Shown here in pieces: positions 1 to 39,393 of a stretch of DNA of 42,225 nucleotides. The stretch covers positions 1-42,225 of the forward strand of contig CATLHC010000020.1 in the NCBI GenBank assembly GCA_949948775.1, read 5' to 3'. This DNA comes from an uncultured Oscillospiraceae bacterium. Lineage in GTDB: Bacteria; Bacillota; Clostridia; Oscillospirales; Oscillospiraceae. Both the position numbers and the translations under genes were made by a program. Below the pieces are notes generated by a model. The model did no database searches. It was not told where the DNA came from and saw only the letters and a program-made list of their open reading frames with translations. The first letter of the stretch is position 1. Every line of letters begins with the position of its first letter.

Positions 1-1504
1 GCAGCGCCGCCTGGTGGTTGGTCTTGCATACCAGCACCCCGGCCTCCGCCAGCTTCTGCCGCTGGACGCTGACGTTTTGCAGATCGGCATCGGTGCCCAG
101 CACGGAGGCCACAAAGACCAGCTCCCGGCCCAACCCCCTGGCCTGCTCCTGGGCCCTGCGGATATCGGGCAGCACATAGCCCACCGGATCCATGTGCCCC
201 GGAGGGGTGAGGATAAAGTCCAGCAGGATCACGGCCGTTTCCGGGTCGGCAGCCTCCCGGGAGATGGCGGGACGGCGGACGCCGGGGTCGATAGCGGGAT
301 GGGGACGGCCCAGGGTGAACTCCTCCTCGCCATAGTCAATGCAGGTGTTTTTCACGCTGACCTGGGAATCGGGAAGCTGCCACTCCGGGCGCAGGGCGAT
401 ATTGGAATACACCTCCCCCACCTTGGGGATCAGAGTGTGCATTGCCTCGTCCATGAAGGTGCCGCCGCTGAATGCGCCCCGGACATATTTCTGCTCCTTC
501 GCCAGCAGTGCCACCGCCTGAGCGGCACGGGCGGCGATCTCCTCGTCCGTGTCCAGCCGGTAAGTTTGACCCGTGAGAGCAAGACACTTCTGGGCGCAGT
601 CGTCCAGGTCACGCGCCCAGATGGCCCCGGCCCCCTCTACGGTGGTCTGGTCGCAGCTCATAAACAGGGTCACCACCGGCTTTTTACACCGGGTAATGCG
701 CTCCAGCAGCCCCGGCAGCACCTGATCCCCGATGCGCCGGGCGATGAGGGCGATGTACTTGGTCTCGGGGTCGGCCTCCAGCGCGTCGATGCCCATGTGC
801 ATCATAATGCCGCCCACCTCGTTCTTCAGGTCGTTGCCCCCGGTGCCGATGGTCTGGGACACCCCGGTGCCTGCTTCGTGGAGGATGGCCGCCACGTGCT
901 GGATGCCCACGCCGGAGGCCCCGCAGATGCCAAAAGGCCCCCGGTTGTTGATACTGGCCAGCACCAGCGCAGCGCCGTTGATGTTGGCAACGCCGCAGTC
1001 CGGCCCCATGCACAGCAGGCCCTTTTTCCGGGCCAGCTCCTTCATCTCCCGCTCCTCGGACAACGGCACGTTGTTGCTGAACACCACGCAGTGCAGCCCC
1101 GCATTCAGAGCCCGCTTCACTTCACCCAGGGCGTACTCCCCCGGCACGGCGATGGAACACAGGTTGGCCCTGGGGCAGCCCTCCGCCGCGGCCTTGATGG
1201 TGGGGTAGCTGGTCTCTGTCTCCTCCTCGTCCACCGGGGCAAGGCTGGCCTCCACCTCCGCCACGGCCCGGTCAAAAGCCTCCTGGGACTCCGCCCGGGC
1301 GGCAATGATGTAGCAGCTCCCGTCGCAGGCGTTCAGTTCCTCGGTCAGCAGGCCGACGCTCTCCAGCACATCCTTGCCGGGGGCGGTGGCCATTCCGGCA
1401 CAGCCGATCTCGACGCCCGGCTGCTCATTGAGTACGCTGGAGGCCAGCAAGGTTTCCAGGGAGTCCACATACCGGCCCCGCTCGATCTTCACAAACACTT
1501 CCAT
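1..1504 (-). CDS. fdrA: FdrA family protein (AllF-like), partial
   Basis: This FdrA-type protein resembles the CoA-binding/ligase superfamily (succinyl-CoA synthetase alpha-like fold). In E. coli, FdrA acts with YlbE and YlbF in oxamate carbamoyl transfer at the end of allantoin breakdown. About 501 codons are present and the C-terminus lies beyond the left edge. The start ATG at 1504 follows AGGAGG by 8 nt. Visible landmarks are the N-terminal MEVFVKIERG, a glycine-rich NNVPLSEE/MGPDCGVANING stretch near residues 140-170, and a GICGASGVG nucleotide-binding-like loop after it. It lies 3 nt downstream of the DUF1116 gene, the same adjacency as fdrA-ylbE in E. coli. The family call is firm. The reaction here is inference, because no allantoin genes are in the window. 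Confidence 0.85.
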   Translation of the reverse strand, partial: MEVFVKIERGRYVDSLETLLASSVLNEQPGVEIGCAGMATAPGKDVLESVGLLTEELNACDGSCYIIAARAESQEAFDRAVAEVEASLAPVDEEETETSYPTIKAAAEGCPRANLCSIAVPGEYALGEVKRALNAGLHCVVFSNNVPLSEEREMKELARKKGLLCMGPDCGVANINGAALVLASINNRGPFGICGASGVGIQHVAAILHEAGTGVSQTIGTGGNDLKNEVGGIMMHMGIDALEADPETKYIALIARRIGDQVLPGLLERITRCKKPVVTLFMSCDQTTVEGAGAIWARDLDDCAQKCLALTGQTYRLDTDEEIAARAAQAVALLAKEQKYVRGAFSGGTFMDEAMHTLIPKVGEVYSNIALRPEWQLPDSQVSVKNTCIDYGEEEFTLGRPHPAIDPGVRRPAISREAADPETAVILLDFILTPPGHMDPVGYVLPDIRRAQEQARGLGRELVFVASVLGTDADLQNVSVQRQKLAEAGVLVCKTNHQAAL

Positions 1505-19188: not shown

Positions 19189-19542
19189 TTATTGCTGTTG
19201 GAACGCATCCAGCGTTCTGAAGATCGCGTCCCGGTCCGTGACGTGCAGGGCCTGGTCATTTGCGTCTGCATTGGAAGTCATGTCCGCATCTTCGGACTGC
19301 GCCTCCCGCTGTGCCAAGATATCCTCTATAAAATGTCTGAGCTGTTTGTTATCCATGACAGTCGCTCCCTGCGGGGCCAGCGTCTGACCACCAGCATAAT
19401 GAAGCATGGCATTTGTGATAAACTGGGCCTTAGACCGTCCCTGACGGTTGAGCAGTTCCGCCGCCTGCCTTTGCTGTGGATCGCAGAGGTTGAAGCGGAC
19501 GGTGAACTTTCCGGGATCTTTCTTGCCATCCATCCCCGTCAC
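19189..19542 (-). CDS. ParR-like partition adaptor
   Basis: A 117-residue protein directly after and overlapping (GTGA) the ParM-like gene. The N-terminal KFTVRFNLCDPQQRQAAELL is a ribbon-helix-helix-like strand and helix, as in ParR/StbB centromere-binding proteins. The middle AQFITNAMLHYAG completes the fold, and the acidic C-terminus would contact the filament. The start is GTG 19542 (AGGAGG 4 nt upstream) or ATG 19533. Role: bind the element's centromere and cap the actin-like filament. Assignment rests on fold pattern plus gene order. Confidence 0.75.
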   Translation of the reverse strand: MTGMDGKKDPGKFTVRFNLCDPQQRQAAELLNRQGRSKAQFITNAMLHYAGGQTLAPQGATVMDNKQLRHFIEDILAQREAQSEDADMTSNADANDQALHVTDRDAIFRTLDAFQQQ

Positions 19543-20453
19543 CTGCCCTCCTGGGCCAGCCGGTACAGCAGCTCAAAGCCCTTGGCGTTGGCCCGGATAT
19601 CGTCCACAAACAGGGGATGTGCCACCTTTCCCGACGCCTCGATTTGCCGGCGCAGCAGGATGGACCCGCCGCCCATAAACACTACCATGCCGGATTTCAG
19701 TTCCAGCCCCCGCTCCCGCAAAGTGCTGAACAAATCGTTAACAAATGCCTGGGCCTGCCGCTCCACCATATCGGCAACCTGGGGAGGGACGTGTTCTTTA
19801 CGGCCCAGGAGGATGGCGTCGATCTCCGACTCCTCCAGCAGCACGTCTAGCTCTGCATTCACCCTGGACTTCACCTGGTTATACAGGGTGATGACCCCGT
19901 GCTCCAGGGATTCGCACACGGATAAGTCGCCCGCGCCGTCCTTCATCAGCAGCAGGTCGGTGGTCATACCGCCTTGGTCGATGATGAGGGCCTTGGGCTT
20001 GTCCCGCAGGGCCTGGAGCATGCTGACGGCGGCGGCGTAAGCCTGGGGGAAGCACATCACCTTCTCAATGAAGATAGAGTAGACTTTGCCCTGGAAGTCG
20101 AACTGTACCGCGCCCCGCCCGGTGAAATAGTTGATAAATGCCTTATGCTGGGCCCCGTAATGGGCCGGGGGCAGCCCCACCGCCAGCTGCACCCGCATGA
20201 GATTGGGGGAGTACGCTCCAGCCGCCTGGACCTCGTAGGCGATGGCGAACAGCGTCAGCACCCAGAACCGCTCATCCTCCGTCTTGTCCCGGTGGTAGGG
20301 GATGCGCTTCTCGGACAGGGTGTAGTATTTCTCCCGATACTTCAAGGTCTCGCCGCCGAAGGGCGGGCTGTCGCTCTCCAGAAGTCCCGAGGTGAAGGGC
20401 GCGTGATTTACGACTTTCACGAGCTTGTTCCCGTGATCAACTGAAATTAACAT
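19539..20453 (-). CDS. parM: ParM/StbA-type actin-like partition ATPase
   Basis: A 304-residue actin-like plasmid segregation protein. It opens with LISVDHGNKLVKVVN (phosphate-1 loop with the key Asp), has ALIIDQGGMTTDLLLM (phosphate-2 loop) mid-protein and VVFMGGGSILLRRQIE (adenosine loop) near the end. It forms ATP-driven filaments that push plasmid copies apart. ATG at 20453 has AGGAGG 8 nt before. With the following ParR-like gene it forms a type II partition operon from the promoter at 20478-20506. Its presence implies the element replicates extrachromosomally at some stage. Confidence 0.88.
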   Translation of the reverse strand: MLISVDHGNKLVKVVNHAPFTSGLLESDSPPFGGETLKYREKYYTLSEKRIPYHRDKTEDERFWVLTLFAIAYEVQAAGAYSPNLMRVQLAVGLPPAHYGAQHKAFINYFTGRGAVQFDFQGKVYSIFIEKVMCFPQAYAAAVSMLQALRDKPKALIIDQGGMTTDLLLMKDGAGDLSVCESLEHGVITLYNQVKSRVNAELDVLLEESEIDAILLGRKEHVPPQVADMVERQAQAFVNDLFSTLRERGLELKSGMVVFMGGGSILLRRQIEASGKVAHPLFVDDIRANAKGFELLYRLAQEGR

Positions 20454-22665: not shown

Positions 22666-25371
<2,706 letters not shown>

Positions 25372-30580: not shown

Positions 30581-30608
30581 TTTAAAAATCCTCCTACATA
30601 ATGTAATC

Positions 30609-30649
30609 AAAAAAGGGGCGCAGTCCGGCCATAGCCGAATCTGCGTCCC
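30609..30649 (-). terminator. intrinsic terminator inside the long operon
   Basis: On the minus strand a stem of GGG-CGCAG / CTGCG-CCC (one mismatch) encloses CGGC-TATG-GCCG and is followed directly by TTTTTT. It sits between the 80-residue gene and the PcfK-like gene, which has no obvious promoter of its own. Genes beyond it need read-through or antitermination. Confidence 0.75.
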
Positions 30650-33689: not shown

Positions 33690-33754
33690 TTGAACATTCT
33701 CCTTCCATAAATAAATAGGAGATGACTCCGCATTTTTTTGCGTGTCACCTCAAA

Positions 33755-36037
33755 TCAACTGGCATTTTTCAATTCTTCCTCGCCGGCCGGTGTATTCCTC
33801 CGGCTCAGCGCCTGGTAATACAGCTGGACGCGCTCCCCCAGCAGGGTGTTGCGCTTGCCCGTGCTGTCCTTGCGCACCGCTATATACAGAGCCTTTTTCA
33901 TCCCCACCAATGCCACACGGCGTTTGGCGCGGGTGACGGCTGTATAAAACAGGTTGCGGGACAGCAAGATCCTGTGGGCGGTCAGCATGGGGATGAGCAC
34001 AGTGTCGTACTCACTGCCTTGAGACTTGTGGATGGTGGTGGCATAGGCCAGATCCAGTTCACCCAGGCTCTCCAGAGGATAGTCCGCGTACCGTCCGTCA
34101 AAACAGACAGTGAGCATATTGGACTGGACCCCGGACACGATGCCTACCTCGCCATTGAACACCCCGGCAGCCACTTGCAGGCCGTTCTCGTCATACAGGG
34201 CCACATCATAGTCGTTTTTCGTCTGCATCACCCTGTCGCCCAGACGGAACAGACGTCCGCCGTTGGACAGCTCGGGTTTTCTGATATCCGGCGGGTTGAT
34301 CTCCGCCTGGATGGCCGCGTTCAGGCTGTTGGCCGAGGCGTCCCCTGTGGTTCGGAACGGGGTGAGGATCTGTACCTGCTCGATGCTGGCGGTTTTCAAC
34401 GCTTTCCGATAGATGCGCCGGATCAGATCGGCGGTCTGCGCCTGATCCTCCGCCGTGACAAAGGCAAAGTCCTGTCCGTAGTACAGCTCGGGCGTGCCCT
34501 CTTTGATGAATTTGGCGTTATAGGCGATCCGGCTGTCCTCCGCCTGACGGAAAATCTGGTCCAGCACCGTCACCGGCACCAGCCCGCACTGGATGAGCTC
34601 CCGGAACATGCTGCCCGCGCCCACGCTCTCCAGCTGGTCGGCGTCGCCCACGATCAGCAGCTTTGCCCCCTTTTTCAGACGCATGAACATCTGATGGGCC
34701 AGCCACATATCCACCATGGAGGCCTCGTCCACAATGAGGAAATCCGCCTCCAGCAGTTTTTTCTCCTGCCAGCCTGTGTCCTCCTCGTGGAGGCCCAGCA
34801 AGCTGTGGAGGGTGGCGGCGCTGCCCATTCCGGTGGTCTCCGCCATACGGCGGCTGGCCTTGCCGGTGGGCGCCCCCAAGGCGATGGCGCTATTCGGATA
34901 CAGCTCCCGGTACGCCTCGATCACCGCCTTCAATATGGTGCTCTTGCCGGTGCCGGGCCCGCCTGTGATGATGGACAGGTCGTGCTGGAACACCATCTCC
35001 ACCGCCCGGTACTGCATGGGGGACAGGGTGATGCCCAGCTTGCCCCTGATGCGCTCCATGATGGGGGCCAAATTGACCGACTCCGGCTGATCCAGCAGCA
35101 TTTCCGCCACCTTGCGGGCGGTCTCGCTCTCCTGGACAAATACATGGGGCAGGTAGATATTGCTCTTCGTGGACACCACTACGTTGGCCTTGATCATAGT
35201 GATCAGCTCCTGCGCCAGCTGGGGCCCTTTCAGCCGCCGGTCCAATTGGGGGATCTTTTCATTCAGCAGCGCCAGGGCCTCGCCCAGCAGCTTCTCCGCT
35301 TCCAGATAGAGGTGGCCGCCCTCGGTGCGGGACTTTTCCAGGGCATAGAACAGCGCCCCGCGTATCCGCATGGGATCGTGGAGGTCGCCGCCGGACTCCT
35401 GCACGATGGCGTCCACCTTTTTGAACCCATACCCCGGGACCTGACAGAGCTGGTAGAAGCTCTTGTGCAGCAGGGCCGCCCCGTCCGGGCCGAAATACTC
35501 ATAGATCTTCATGGCCGCTTTCGGGGTCAGCTTAAAAGGGGCCAACACCGTCATGATAGCGCGGACAGCCTTGCTCTCGGCATAGCCCGCCTTGATCTCC
35601 TCCAGCCGTTCTTCGGTGATGCCCCGGATCTCCAGCAGCTTTTCCGGCTGGGTCTCAATGACATTGAGCGAGTCTGTGCCAAACCGCTGGACGATCTCCC
35701 CGGCGGTCTTGGGGCCGATGCCCTTCAACAGCCCGGAGGACAGGTAGCCCAGGATGCCCTCAATGGTGGGCGGCACCAGCTCATGCCAGGTGTCCACCTG
35801 GAACCGGGGGCCGTGCTTGCTGTCTATCCACTCCCCATCCAGCTCCATCTTGATGGCGTCCGTCCGGGGCAGGTCATAGCCCACGGCCACGAAGCGGATC
35901 AGGTGGTCCGCGAATTTGTGTTTGTCCCGGGCGTCCTCCGGCACCATGGGATCGGCGGTTTTCAGACGCAGGATACAATACTTTTCAGCTGCATTGTAGT
36001 AGAGCGTTTTGTCATACGCCGCCACGATACTACTCAT
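33755..36037 (-). CDS. recD2: RecD2-like ATP-dependent helicase
   Basis: A 760-residue superfamily 1B 5'-to-3' helicase. The N-terminal OB/HhH region carries SSGLLKGIGPKTAGEIVQRF (about residue 100-120) and later HhH repeats. Walker A is GGPGTGKST at 359-367 and Walker B is FLIVDEASMVD. Motif III is VGDADQLESVGAG, and the C-terminal motifs are TTIHKSQGSEYD and YTAVTRAKRRVAL. It unwinds DNA, here probably for recombination or replication with YqaJ. ATG at 36037 has AGGAGG 8 nt upstream. Length and motifs are complete, so it should be active. Confidence 0.93.
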   Translation of the reverse strand: MSSIVAAYDKTLYYNAAEKYCILRLKTADPMVPEDARDKHKFADHLIRFVAVGYDLPRTDAIKMELDGEWIDSKHGPRFQVDTWHELVPPTIEGILGYLSSGLLKGIGPKTAGEIVQRFGTDSLNVIETQPEKLLEIRGITEERLEEIKAGYAESKAVRAIMTVLAPFKLTPKAAMKIYEYFGPDGAALLHKSFYQLCQVPGYGFKKVDAIVQESGGDLHDPMRIRGALFYALEKSRTEGGHLYLEAEKLLGEALALLNEKIPQLDRRLKGPQLAQELITMIKANVVVSTKSNIYLPHVFVQESETARKVAEMLLDQPESVNLAPIMERIRGKLGITLSPMQYRAVEMVFQHDLSIITGGPGTGKSTILKAVIEAYRELYPNSAIALGAPTGKASRRMAETTGMGSAATLHSLLGLHEEDTGWQEKKLLEADFLIVDEASMVDMWLAHQMFMRLKKGAKLLIVGDADQLESVGAGSMFRELIQCGLVPVTVLDQIFRQAEDSRIAYNAKFIKEGTPELYYGQDFAFVTAEDQAQTADLIRRIYRKALKTASIEQVQILTPFRTTGDASANSLNAAIQAEINPPDIRKPELSNGGRLFRLGDRVMQTKNDYDVALYDENGLQVAAGVFNGEVGIVSGVQSNMLTVCFDGRYADYPLESLGELDLAYATTIHKSQGSEYDTVLIPMLTAHRILLSRNLFYTAVTRAKRRVALVGMKKALYIAVRKDSTGKRNTLLGERVQLYYQALSRRNTPAGEEELKNAS

Positions 36038-36048
36038 ATGCGTACCTC

Positions 36049-37104
36049 CTACGCCGCCGCTTCTGCGGCGGTAAATTTCACGTTGAACGTCCGGCTCTCA
36101 GACAGCGATACATACTGGTCAAAGATGTCCGGGTGGGCGTCCTTCAGCCGCAGCAGATCGTCCTTCAGAATATTGAGCCTCTGGCTGGGCTTCATGGTGA
36201 CGGTATAGCTGCCGCTTCCGTCCTCATAGGCTGCTGACCAGCTTCCAGCCATATCGGTCACAATTTGGGCCTTCAGCCGTTCCATCTCCTTATCCAGCTT
36301 CTTCACATCGGCATTCAGGGCGCCCTTCTGATCCCGAAGCTCCACATACCGCCGTACGTTCTCGGATTGGGCCTCGGTGAAAGCAGCCGGGGGCATATCC
36401 TTATAGGACGGGCCCAGACAGCGCCGCAGGCTCTCCAGGATCAGAGCGCCGTCGTCCTCGATGTAGGGCGGCGGGGTCTTGGCCTTGACGTGGTTCACCC
36501 AGAAGTACTCCTCCAGGGCGATCAGCTCCGCCTCGTACTTCAAATCACGGTCGATGTTGCGGATGATGATCTCGTCCTCGCTGTTGCCGTAGAGACAGCA
36601 GAAGTACACCCGGCTCAGATTCATCACGGCCATGTAGTGCCGTCCCTGTGCCTCGTAATACTGGGGCACGATGGGCTTGCCGTCGTACTCCCACTTGTCC
36701 CGGGCGTTGTAGTTGGTGGTCTTGCACTCCAGGATGGCGGTACTACCGTCCGGCAGGTTCACCAGGCGGTCCACGTCGGCCAGCATCCAGGGATGCTCCG
36801 CGTGCTGGAACATGACCGGCATGGGGCAGACCTCCAGGCCGGTCTTTTTCGCAAAGATGCGGGCTACCAGATCCTCCAGGAGAGTGCCCACCTCTTTGGC
36901 AACCCAGTTCTGTTCATCGTCCTCCACTGGCTGGCCCAGCTTGTCATAGTAGAGGTCCACCCCGGTGCGGAAGGGCGAGATGCCCAGTACGGCGGCCGCG
37001 TCGCTGCCGCCGATGCCCTGGCGGCGGTATGCCAGCCATTCCTCCCGGGGCAGGTCTGCGGTGGGGGTGAGCACATTAGGCAGCTTTCCCTGCGGTTCCG
37101 CCAA
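36049..37104 (-). CDS. YqaJ viral recombinase/lambda-exonuclease family nuclease
   Basis: A 351-residue PD-(D/E)XK nuclease of the YqaJ family. IGGSDAAAVLG opens the fold, then EVGTLLEDLVARIFAKKTG (Glu), WMLADVDRLV (Asp) and AILECKTTNYNAR (ExK catalytic pair) follow. The C-terminal third is a coiled coil (RDQKGALNADVKKLDKEMER). It digests one strand from a double-strand end and feeds an annealing protein. The start is TTG at 37104 after AAAGGGGG; no in-frame ATG lies between it and the catalytic domain. It overlaps a 52-residue gene by 29 bp, so translation is probably coupled. Confidence 0.9.
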   Translation of the reverse strand: MAEPQGKLPNVLTPTADLPREEWLAYRRQGIGGSDAAAVLGISPFRTGVDLYYDKLGQPVEDDEQNWVAKEVGTLLEDLVARIFAKKTGLEVCPMPVMFQHAEHPWMLADVDRLVNLPDGSTAILECKTTNYNARDKWEYDGKPIVPQYYEAQGRHYMAVMNLSRVYFCCLYGNSEDEIIIRNIDRDLKYEAELIALEEYFWVNHVKAKTPPPYIEDDGALILESLRRCLGPSYKDMPPAAFTEAQSENVRRYVELRDQKGALNADVKKLDKEMERLKAQIVTDMAGSWSAAYEDGSGSYTVTMKPSQRLNILKDDLLRLKDAHPDIFDQYVSLSESRTFNVKFTAAEAAA

Positions 37105-37234
37105 GATTCGCCGCCCCCTTTCCTGGGATAGTCCCCCTGGGCTTGAGGGCCTGGAGCTGCCTCCGGCCCGGCTTCATGGACCCCATCCCGCGGCGCGGGC
37201 GGCCGCCCGGCTTCCATACTGCGTGATACTTCAT
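37076..37234 (-). CDS. small basic leader-gene product, 52 aa
   Basis: A 52-residue, strongly basic protein beginning MKYHAVWKPGGRPRRGMGSM, preceded by AAAGGAG at 8 nt and overlapping the YqaJ start by 29 bp. It has no known domain. It may bind nucleic acid or simply serve as a coupling leader that lets ribosomes reach the TTG start of YqaJ. It is the first open frame after the structured RNA. Confidence 0.5.
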   Translation of the reverse strand: MKYHAVWKPGGRPRRGMGSMKPGRRQLQALKPRGTIPGKGAANLGGTAGKAA

Positions 37235-37289
37235 GTCCGATCTCCTTTCATTTTTTGATATATCCTCAAAGCCTCTCGGCGTTTGGGCA

Positions 37290-37612
37290 AACAAAAAAAG
37301 CGGGAACAACTGGATTCCGGCATTGCCGGCTTGGCTCATCCGCAGATGAACCCCAGTCATTCCCGCTTTATGCGTCGGGGAGTATCTTCCCCGTATAGAA
37401 AACAAAATCGCCAGCCGATGCCGCCGCAAATGGGCAGACTTCTCCCGCTGACGATACAAACAAACCCGGAAAGCGCCTCATAGATCATCCCTGCTGTTTT
37501 TCCAACAGAGCCAGCGCTTCCCGCAACGTGTGCAATGCGAACCCTTCGCTCCCAGGTCGGTGAGACCGGCCTGCCCTCCCGCAACGGGAGAAAACGCACA
37601 TAGAATCAATTA
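37290..37612 (-). ncRNA. highly structured RNA, ~320 nt, leader of replication operon
   Basis: From the predicted start near 37612 the minus-strand RNA folds by eye into helices (plus coordinates): a 6-bp closing helix 37595-37600/37529-37534 enclosing hairpins 37576-37590, 37553-37573 and 37537-37549; a 9-bp helix 37514-37522/37468-37476 with inner hairpin 37494-37508; a 9-bp helix 37447-37455/37407-37415; hairpin 37376-37393; and a 17-bp helix 37353-37369/37297-37313 enclosing hairpins 37333-37352 and 37317-37329 and running into seven U's. Several pairs are G-U on this strand and would be A-C mismatches on the other, so the minus strand is the folding one. I match it to no RNA family I know. 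Confidence 0.7.
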
Positions 37613-37619
37613 CAAATGG

Positions 37620-37648
37620 ATGATACCACAATATTTAGACGCTGTCAA
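37620..37648 (-). promoter_or_regulatory. strong promoter of structured RNA and replication operon
   Basis: On the minus strand, a perfect -35 TTGACA (37643-37648), 17-bp spacer, and -10 TATCAT (37620-37625). This is the best promoter in the window, and it lies just 5' of the structured RNA. Confidence 0.8.
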
Positions 37649-37997: not shown

Positions 37998-38231
37998 ATG
38001 CTGGAACAGTTCCCAGACATTTTAACCGTTAAAGACCTGCAAAAAATTTTGTCCATAGGCCGCAGCAAAGCGTATTCGATCCTACACAGCGGTGAGCTGC
38101 AATATATAACCATAGGGAGGCAGATCCGCATTCCTAAAAAGTATCTGCTGGACTATCTGCAAAAAATGAGCTATAATACTAAGTTGAAGAGTGGCATGGA
38201 CTCCACGGAGGGACGTGCCCATGTCAGTTAG
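37998..38231 (+). CDS. xis: excisionase-type helix-turn-helix protein
   Basis: A 77-residue winged-helix/MerR-like DNA-binding protein of the excisionase (helix-turn-helix 17) type: LTVKDLQKILSIGRSKAYSI, then ITIGRQIRIPKKYLLDYL. It directs the integrase towards excision and may regulate int. AGGAGG lies 10 nt before the ATG. It overlaps the integrase start by 11 bp, the normal coupling for xis-int pairs of Firmicutes integrative elements. Confidence 0.88.
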   Translation: MLEQFPDILTVKDLQKILSIGRSKAYSILHSGELQYITIGRQIRIPKKYLLDYLQKMSYNTKLKSGMDSTEGRAHVS

Positions 38232-39393
38232 CCTGCAAGAAAAGAAAGGCGTTTATTACGCCGTGTTCCGTGTCGTCGATGTGAACGGCGAAACGAAACA
38301 GAAATGGGTATCGACTAAAGTTCCTGTCAAACGGGGCAATAAAAGGGAGGCGCAGAGAGCGGCACAAGAGATCGCGGGCAAATTTGAAGAAGGTAAGATC
38401 GTCGCCTATCCCAGAACTCCGTTCTGGCAATGGCTCGAAACCTGGCTGGAGCAGAAGGAGAACGAGGTTGACCGTATTACGTTTCAAGGCTATGCCAGCT
38501 ACTACAGAAATCATATTGGCCCGTATTTCAAGCAGCATAACGTAACCCTGAATGATATTTCTCCTCAGGATATACAACTGTATTACAATCGCAAAGCACA
38601 GAAGCCAGGAGAGCATATCAAAGGAAAGCTATCTGGAAAAAGCCTGCACGACCACCATATCGTGATCCGGGGCGCTCTGCAGGACGCCGTAAAGAAGAAT
38701 ATCATCCCGTACAATCCCGCTGACCGGGTGACGCTGCCAAAGAAACAAAAGTATGTTGGCAGCTTCTACACTCAGGAACAGTCCAAGGCATTGCTTGGAG
38801 CCATCAAGGGGACTATCATTGAACACATCGTTACGTTCACGATCATCTATGGTTTGCGTAGGAGTGAAGCGGTAGGTTTGAAGTGGAGCGCGATCAATTT
38901 TGAGAACAATACCTTCACGATTGAGGCGACCGTCGTTCGCTTCTCTGAGATCCTTGAAAAGCAGACCACCAAAAACCAGGCAAGCCACAGGACCTATCCC
39001 ATGATGCCGGACATCAGGCAGATGCTCTTATCCATCAAGGAGCGGCAGGAAGAGATGAAAGAACTCTTGGGCAGCTCCTACGTTGACAGCGGATATGTGT
39101 TCACATGGGATGATGGCAGGATCTTGAACCCGGATTTTGTGAGCCGAAAGTTTACGCAAATTCTCAAAGCAAATGGACTGCCCCATATCAGATATCACGA
39201 CCTGAGACACACGACGGCAAGCCTGCTGATCGCCAAAGGCTATGATATCAAGCGGGTGTCCGAATGGCTCGGCCACAGCGATATAGCAACTACGGCCAAC
39301 ATTTATGGGCACCTGAGTTTTGAGAACAAAAAAGGCACTTTGGCCGCTATGTCAGACCTGCTTTCCGATGGCAAAAATCAGGGTACGTGTTAG
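38221..39393 (+). CDS. int: tyrosine recombinase/integrase
   Basis: A 390-residue phage-type site-specific recombinase. The N-terminal AP2-like arm-binding domain (residues 1-60, KGVYYAVFRVVDVNGE) is followed by a SAM-like core-binding domain (65-170). The catalytic domain carries Arg213 (GLRRSEAVGLKW), Lys near 251, His326-x-x-Arg329 (HDLRHT), His352 (GHSDIATT) and nucleophile Tyr362. All catalytic residues are present, so it should be active. ATG at 38221 follows GGAGGG by 7 nt. It integrates and excises the element at the right border. The stop is followed by two GTTAGAAC direct repeats (39390-39397, 39402-39409) that may be binding sites. Confidence 0.95.
   Translation: MSVSLQEKKGVYYAVFRVVDVNGETKQKWVSTKVPVKRGNKREAQRAAQEIAGKFEEGKIVAYPRTPFWQWLETWLEQKENEVDRITFQGYASYYRNHIGPYFKQHNVTLNDISPQDIQLYYNRKAQKPGEHIKGKLSGKSLHDHHIVIRGALQDAVKKNIIPYNPADRVTLPKKQKYVGSFYTQEQSKALLGAIKGTIIEHIVTFTIIYGLRRSEAVGLKWSAINFENNTFTIEATVVRFSEILEKQTTKNQASHRTYPMMPDIRQMLLSIKERQEEMKELLGSSYVDSGYVFTWDDGRILNPDFVSRKFTQILKANGLPHIRYHDLRHTTASLLIAKGYDIKRVSEWLGHSDIATTANIYGHLSFENKKGTLAAMSDLLSDGKNQGTC

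Follow-up and report, generated by a model that had tools for sequence, protein, structure and literature searches.

The window, by which we mean the whole 42,225-nt stretch analysed here, carries on its minus strand, in 5′ to 3′ order, a promoter, about 320 nt of self-pairing RNA, a 52-aa basic ORF and the genes for YqaJ and RecD2, followed in the same operon by genes for YodL, PcfK and PcfJ proteins, a DNA ligase and an actin-like protein (Table 1). An excisionase-like HTH gene and an integrase gene (37998-39393) lie upstream in the opposite direction. A RepA_N replication protein is encoded near the contig end (41461-42213), and the actin-like protein is at 19539-20453. With such plasmid-like features beside an integrase and metabolic genes, the window is a mosaic. 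A search of the window for the coupling-protein gene (PF02534) gave no match. The ligase (22666-25353) has an N-terminal DUF2786/DUF7168 fusion, which is missing from the ligase in one related locus (L079) and is a separate protein in another (L052). Most likely, the RNA forms the leading end of the transcript of a long operon for DNA processing in a conjugative-type mobile element.

Table 1. Features of the minus-strand operon and its leader, listed from the promoter onward
Feature	Position	Strand	Evidence or remark
Sigma-70-type promoter, TTGACA-17 nt-TATCAT, TG before the second hexamer	37620..37648	-	11/12 matches
Conserved 5′ RNA domain, three-hairpin multiloop	37523..37615	-	covariance models R1 and R2, pair counts
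Pieces of the 5′ domain	single-stranded UGUAAUUGAUU; P1 37600-37595 with 37534-37529; hp1 37590-37576; hp2 37573-37553; hp3 37549-37537	-	
Inserted hairpin arm, variable	37468..37521	-	missing from most relatives' printed leaders (alignment)
Conserved linker, GUUAAGUUUGUACGU in relatives, GGGUUUGUUUGUAUCG in the window	37452..37467	-	alignment, printed leaders
T1 terminator-like hairpin, stem AUCGUCAGC/GCUGGCGAU (9), then UUUUGUUUU	37398..37455	-	
Small GGGGA/UCCCC hairpin	37377..37392	-	
T2, 17-bp stem closing two hairpins, U7 at end	37293..37369	-	
Post-terminator hairpin CCAAA-n-GCC(GnnA)GGC-TTTG ahead of the ribosome-binding site	37267..37286	-	near invariant in 18 aligned YqaJ-type leaders
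52-aa basic protein, net charge +12, first gene	37076..37234	-	candidate RNA-binding partner
YqaJ-like recombinase/exonuclease	36049..37104	-	PF09588 1.2e-26
RecD2-like helicase	33755..36037	-	
Weaker internal terminator-like hairpin, recD2/next gene	33708..33751	-	-16 kcal/mol; end approximate
Internal terminator, YodL/PcfK junction	30608..30649	-	next ribosome-binding site and ATG 30597-30578, after the U-run

The near-consensus promoter reported in the initial annotation is present, and its spacer carries TAAATATTGTG, a degenerate copy of the CACAATATATTGTG palindrome of the relatives described below. Folding of the 331-nt strand gives -150.6 kcal/mol (z -5.58), an energy equalled by none of 100 shuffles. 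The 5′ domain by energy alone is unremarkable in the window copy (z -0.56), and ten copies folded singly gave z values of -0.15 to -1.89, none of them significant; folding energy was therefore dropped as evidence for this domain, and we relied on sequence comparison. The helices proposed in the initial annotation were all found, with comparative support for P1, hp1 to hp3 and the T2 stem, except that hp2 (CAGGCCGGU/ACCGACCUG), claimed to be a helix of nine base pairs, has nine positions with one C-A mismatch. P1 is UGUGCG/UGCACA (6 pairs, the last one G-U), hp1 is CUCCCG/CGGGAG (6) and hp3 is GCGAA/UUCGC (5). The unconstrained minimum-energy fold draws the middle region of the leader differently.

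Relatives of the RNA and their covariation

We built a covariance model of the 5′ domain (R1) from a seed of 13 well-aligned copies, with two shifted ones left out; a MAFFT alignment of 28 copies was rejected as a seed because its hairpins were misaligned. R1 gave 51 matches in 50 of 56 sources, and the six sources without a match were L013, L024, L029, L055 and two controls. A second model, R2, scores two non-seed copies in pMM35_02 at 39.2 and 35.9 bits, and these copies adjoin, on the upstream side, a YqaJ-type operon and an annotated gene for a single-stranded DNA-binding protein (SSB). By BLAST, the 401-nt region matched 29 of 400 genomes sampled from the window's family, its own genome among them, and almost all matches lay at the two ends of the element. 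Under stricter filters, with which weak matches are lost, R1 matched 12 of 295 genomes sampled from the order, one of 391 from the class (the window's own) and two of 398 from the phylum (the window's own plus a genome that belongs to another class and holds two copies), and R2 matched two of 381 genomes from the class, both of the window's family. Relatives detected by these searches are concentrated in the window's bacterial order. In the window's own genome, an 89%-complete assembly, R1 and R2 matched the window copy only, and no SSB-type partner was seen.

A few degenerate copies excepted, the relatives whose leaders were printed share a layout of TTGACA, a 17-nt spacer with a CAATATATTGTG-like palindrome, TGTAATTGATT-TTTGTGCG, two or three hairpins, ATTGCACACG, GTTAAGTTTGTACGT and T1, to which the YqaJ-type copies add T2 and, ahead of the ribosome-binding site, a fixed hairpin. 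With a permissive pattern, a TTGA-type and a TA-type hexamer separated by 17 nt are found in 45 of 47 distinct leaders; of 49 leaders, 8 contain the exact 14-bp palindrome. The 5′ end and the linker are highly conserved, and a pseudoknot between the two was considered by eye. In many leaders of the YqaJ and SSB types alike, a GCC-loop-GGC hairpin directly precedes the ribosome-binding site; the exact form GCCGnRAGGC is present in 18 of 52 copies, other loops occur too, and in some SSB-type leaders the 3′ arm extends into the ribosome-binding site.

Promoter-like sequences were also seen in viruses. In two Streptococcus phages (L092:2470-2670 and L093:2470-2670), a small gene is preceded by the paired operator-like sites ACACAATATATAG and ACACAATATATTGTG; R1 finds no RNA there, and the likeness of these phages to the leaders is confined to the promoter region. 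The pattern TTGACnnnnnCAATATATTGTGnTA occurs in 20 viral contigs, in three of which R1 finds the RNA, and a search of the viral collection with YqaJ gave no matches.

In the alignment of 51 distinct 5′-domain copies, the proportion of cells that pair is 92.8%, and 17 of 22 pairs have changed on both sides. The covariation score is 0.495, whereas shuffles give 0.201 (sd 0.010) and none of 500 reaches 0.495. Similarly, 30 distinct sequences show 94.3% pairing cells with 15 of 22 pairs compensated, and in 15 sequences both sides have changed in 10 of 21 predicted pairs. The alignments of 30 and 51 copies were fitted to the covariance model, so we put the weight on a control in which the partners are slid, where the signal of the 51 distinct copies collapses to 0.025-0.127. 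In the T2 stem, 8 of 19 predicted pairs are compensated in an ordinary MAFFT alignment of 18 copies; for this alignment 25 of the 26 YqaJ-type loci were tried, 21 were extracted (four were missed by the pattern), and L045, L054 and L007 were omitted as near-duplicate or short. Covariation thus bears out the pairing in the 5′ domain and in the T2 stem. The last P1 pair is G-U in 42 of the 51 distinct copies, and in T2 one pair is U-G and its neighbor G-U, each in 5 of 18 copies. Because of these G-U pairs, the strand of the RNA is fixed, and the earlier argument that pairing is kept on the RNA strand is correct.

The covariance models of Rfam 15 gave no match at the gathering cut-off in the window or in 14 copy-carrying loci, in agreement with the initial annotation, which had recognized no known RNA family. 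At E up to 10, the window yielded only RF02841, which scored 17.4 bits where the cut-off is 115 and lies on the other strand, upstream of the promoter. It is near certain, from the comparative evidence, that the RNA family is real and absent from Rfam 15. We found no description of this RNA in the literature covered, from which subscription papers are mostly missing; PMC8040213 presents a large list of candidate RNAs from human microbiomes, which could contain this RNA unlabelled.

Genes and terminators downstream of the domain

The genes following 52 copies, which are partly non-independent, are YqaJ in 26, SSB in 11, a DUF932 operon without an SSB match in three (SSB and DUF932 operons together, 14 of 52) and a tyrosine recombinase in five; two copies were unresolved and five had too little DNA. 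The tyrosine recombinase of the third context (L047, L048, L134, L149 and L042) has about 300 residues, and in four of these five loci another long terminator-like hairpin was seen by eye between leader and gene.

In 43 of 46 leaders (one of the 47 was dropped as too short), the domain is followed within about 195 nt by a hairpin of -15 kcal/mol or lower with a U-run, versus 19 of 138 dinucleotide shuffles. T1 has a U-run in 40 of 47 distinct leaders, a clear one being missing in the other seven. A local anti-terminator hairpin inside T1 (CAGUA/UACUG) was rejected by inspection, as it occurs in some leaders and is missing in others.

Terminators are also found inside the operons. Between a stop codon and the next ribosome-binding site, with the start codon 18-60 nt after the hairpin (search window 12-60), we counted 41 terminators in sense and one in antisense orientation in 22 tracts (368.8 kb); the control stretches, 400 kb taken from two genomes that carry leaders, hold 22 with both strands counted. 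The density of 0.111 per kb is thus about twice the 0.055 per kb of the controls, in tracts that are partly near-identical elements and hence non-independent. At least one such terminator is present in 19 of the 22 tracts and none in the other three. This count of 41 versus 22, made without gene calls, misses the window's YodL/PcfK terminator, and a laxer filter gives 42 versus 22; it replaced a crude junction count with gene calling (22/161 versus 7/189), which had lost the window's own operon. A count of strong terminators gave 20 sense and 6 antisense in 205 kb (17 operons, related elements included), and with the threshold tightened, the scanned stretches of 7 of 17 operons lack any internal terminator. 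One promoter pattern, searched from -60 to +170 at ten selected junctions, gave no match. Some junctions recur with differing hairpin sequences, such as YodL/PcfK in the window and in two other genomes (G145 and G202), and SSB-type operons have recurring terminator junctions near 0.6, 3.6 and 4.5 kb. In pMM35_02, four leader-less runs, including the T4SS operon, hold no internal terminator, and each of two leader-headed operons holds one. Together, these terminator findings are suggestive, not decisive.

The survey of first genes covered the 26 YqaJ-type loci and found a small ORF in 25 of them; 24 of the 25 code for 39-63 residues with a net charge of +6 to +18, and the remaining one has a net charge of -4. 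In pMM35_02, the first annotated gene after the SSB-type leader is SSB itself. Among four close relatives, changes in the small ORF favor third codon positions in six of six pairs, and synonymous codon changes exceed the others in five of six pairs, in an ORF that partly overlaps the start of YqaJ. For the window's 52-aa protein, neither Pfam nor PHROG gave a match at E up to 1, and of five such small proteins none could be placed convincingly in a family of either collection (best E 0.011 and 0.016). This protein of 39-63 aa, usually rich in arginine and lysine, is a candidate antitermination partner.

Possible modes of action

The initial annotation left it open whether the RNA is a free small RNA or a 5′ leader controlling the replication operon. 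The leader is favored, because the domain recurs before YqaJ, SSB or DUF932 genes (40 of 52 contexts) and T2 is followed by a conserved hairpin and ribosome-binding site. We judge the chances to be about even that this leader is a cis-acting processive antiterminator RNA with a role like that of nut, put, canT and conAn2. Starting from the fold, conservation, promoter, leader and internal terminators and gene contexts established by sequence, we infer termination, antitermination, polymerase contact and a role of the protein as follows. While still nascent, the 5′ domain with its three-hairpin multiloop and conserved single-stranded flanks would engage the elongating RNA polymerase; the engaged polymerase would become resistant to intrinsic terminators, and only transcripts from the element's own promoter would pass T1, T2 and the downstream intergenic terminators. 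The small basic protein encoded by the first gene of the YqaJ operon may be an RNA-binding helper, and it would serve in trans other leaders with the same domain. Antitermination is favored because one conserved domain heads different operons and terminators follow both in the leaders and inside the operons; the domain lies, by its sequence position, downstream of a promoter and upstream of terminators, as is the case for processive antiterminator RNAs. The terminator density of only about twice the control, the three tracts without any, the 7 of 17 operons without one at the stricter threshold, the seven leaders without a clear T1 U-run and the lack of detectable similarity to canT or conAn2 count against antitermination, and so does the long stem of T2, since an extraordinarily long stem reportedly, going by the title of one paper, makes terminators resist processive antitermination. 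A tentative and rather unlikely extension is a bipartite system unlike those described, in which one multiloop RNA, the common leader of two or three operons, would be licensed by the tiny arginine/lysine-rich protein of the YqaJ/RecD2 operon, and terminators at conserved junctions would restrict expression of DNA processing, SSB and recombination genes to polymerases from the element's own operator-controlled promoters.

The same terminators, coming directly after the domain, could instead belong to a local attenuator, in which the 5′ domain would sense a ligand, a host signal or a protein, perhaps the basic one or a different regulator of the element, and decide at T1/T2 only, with no processive effect. 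The elaborate and covarying T2 fits this possibility, as do the common promoter palindrome and RNA, which suggest a regulon. We nevertheless rank it second, as less likely than antitermination, since inspection of the printed leaders revealed no conserved anti-terminator pairing with T1, and the distant internal terminators would still require read-through or overlapping promoters. A near-consensus promoter of its own and strong terminators would also be expected of a free regulatory small RNA that stops at T1 or T2, giving a length of about 160-320 nt, with the operon expressed by read-through or from other promoters; this is improbable given the place kept before YqaJ or SSB/DUF932 genes and the conserved signals after T2 that favor a leader. 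A DNA-level element resembling RNA, such as an origin of transfer, a single-strand origin or a palindromic protein site, might be expected in a mobile element with replication and recombination genes, but the G-U pairs kept on one strand, the compensatory changes throughout and the constant position just downstream of the promoter in the printed leaders leave it hardly any likelihood.

In the lambda N/nut system, two operons share an RNA site and a small basic protein is encoded at the start of one of them, and put and EAR are folded cis-acting RNAs. The leaders described here resemble N/nut in having an RNA site common to operons and a small basic protein, the putative partner, encoded early, but the basic ORF comes after the terminators. 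With put and EAR they share a structured cis-acting RNA proposed to act on polymerase; that no Rfam 15 family was matched is informative here only if the library includes put and EAR. The put RNA of HK022 and EAR of Bacillus are both named in PMC11658703 and PMC8955417. According to the former, canT of Tn916 is most likely a cis-acting processive antitermination RNA. Like canT (a 452-nt fragment), the leader is an RNA of a few hundred nucleotides with an element promoter, ahead of DNA-processing genes, and Tn916, an integrative element, likewise has internal terminators; unlike canT, the RNA here serves as the leader of two or three operons, and leader terminators of its own come after it. In pLS20-type conjugation operons, conAn1/conAn2 act at the operon head (PMC8955417), and the resemblance lies in an RNA that opens a long operon in which terminators are numerous and in a protein helper, here putative, encoded near the start; the difference is that our candidate helper has 39-63 aa and is usually arginine/lysine-rich. 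R1 and R2 gave no match at E up to 1 in pCF10 1-50000, which includes the Tn916-like part, or in pLS20 1-50000. With filters off, the best R1 hit in the canT region (L057 41000-43400) has 10.3 bits (E 0.1, 39 nt) and lies outside the canT interval, as placed in pCF10 from the distances given in PMC11658703; that at the pLS20 operon head (L058 1400-5000), where the position of conAn2 is likewise deduced, has 9.0 bits (E 0.35). The leader RNA is thus not detectably akin to canT or conAn2 by these models, and membership in either family is unsupported.

These results describe a strongly covarying RNA family, not in Rfam 15, in mobile elements of gut bacteria and offer an idea of how such elements could stay silent and then turn on whole gene blocks from their own promoters. 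If antitermination proves true, this would be another processive antitermination RNA beside canT and conAn2, coordinating several operons at once. Some of these elements have a conjugation coupling-protein gene on the same contig: PF02534 was found on the leader-carrying contig in five of eight genomes searched (G202:C1, G145:C1, G270:C8, G491:C24 and G118:C1, in the last 450 kb from the leader), a fragment lies in G182:C59, and none was found on the leader contigs of G000 and G275. pMM35_02 carries annotated conjugation genes. Two copies face each other on one contig in G202 (60654+/132465-), G145 (49527+/105489-) and G275 (5408+/54555-) and in a 247-kb Subdoligranulum plasmid record (20581+ and 98391-), and both copies are on one strand in G270. 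In G182 (L037:10289-12593), an SSB-type and a YqaJ-type leader point toward each other across about 2 kb, which looks like a rearrangement or truncation of the element. The record NZ_AP023417.1 (L101-L103) is labelled a plasmid, yet prfB, purB, selD and ychF are present, and it may be a chromid or a chromosomal piece.
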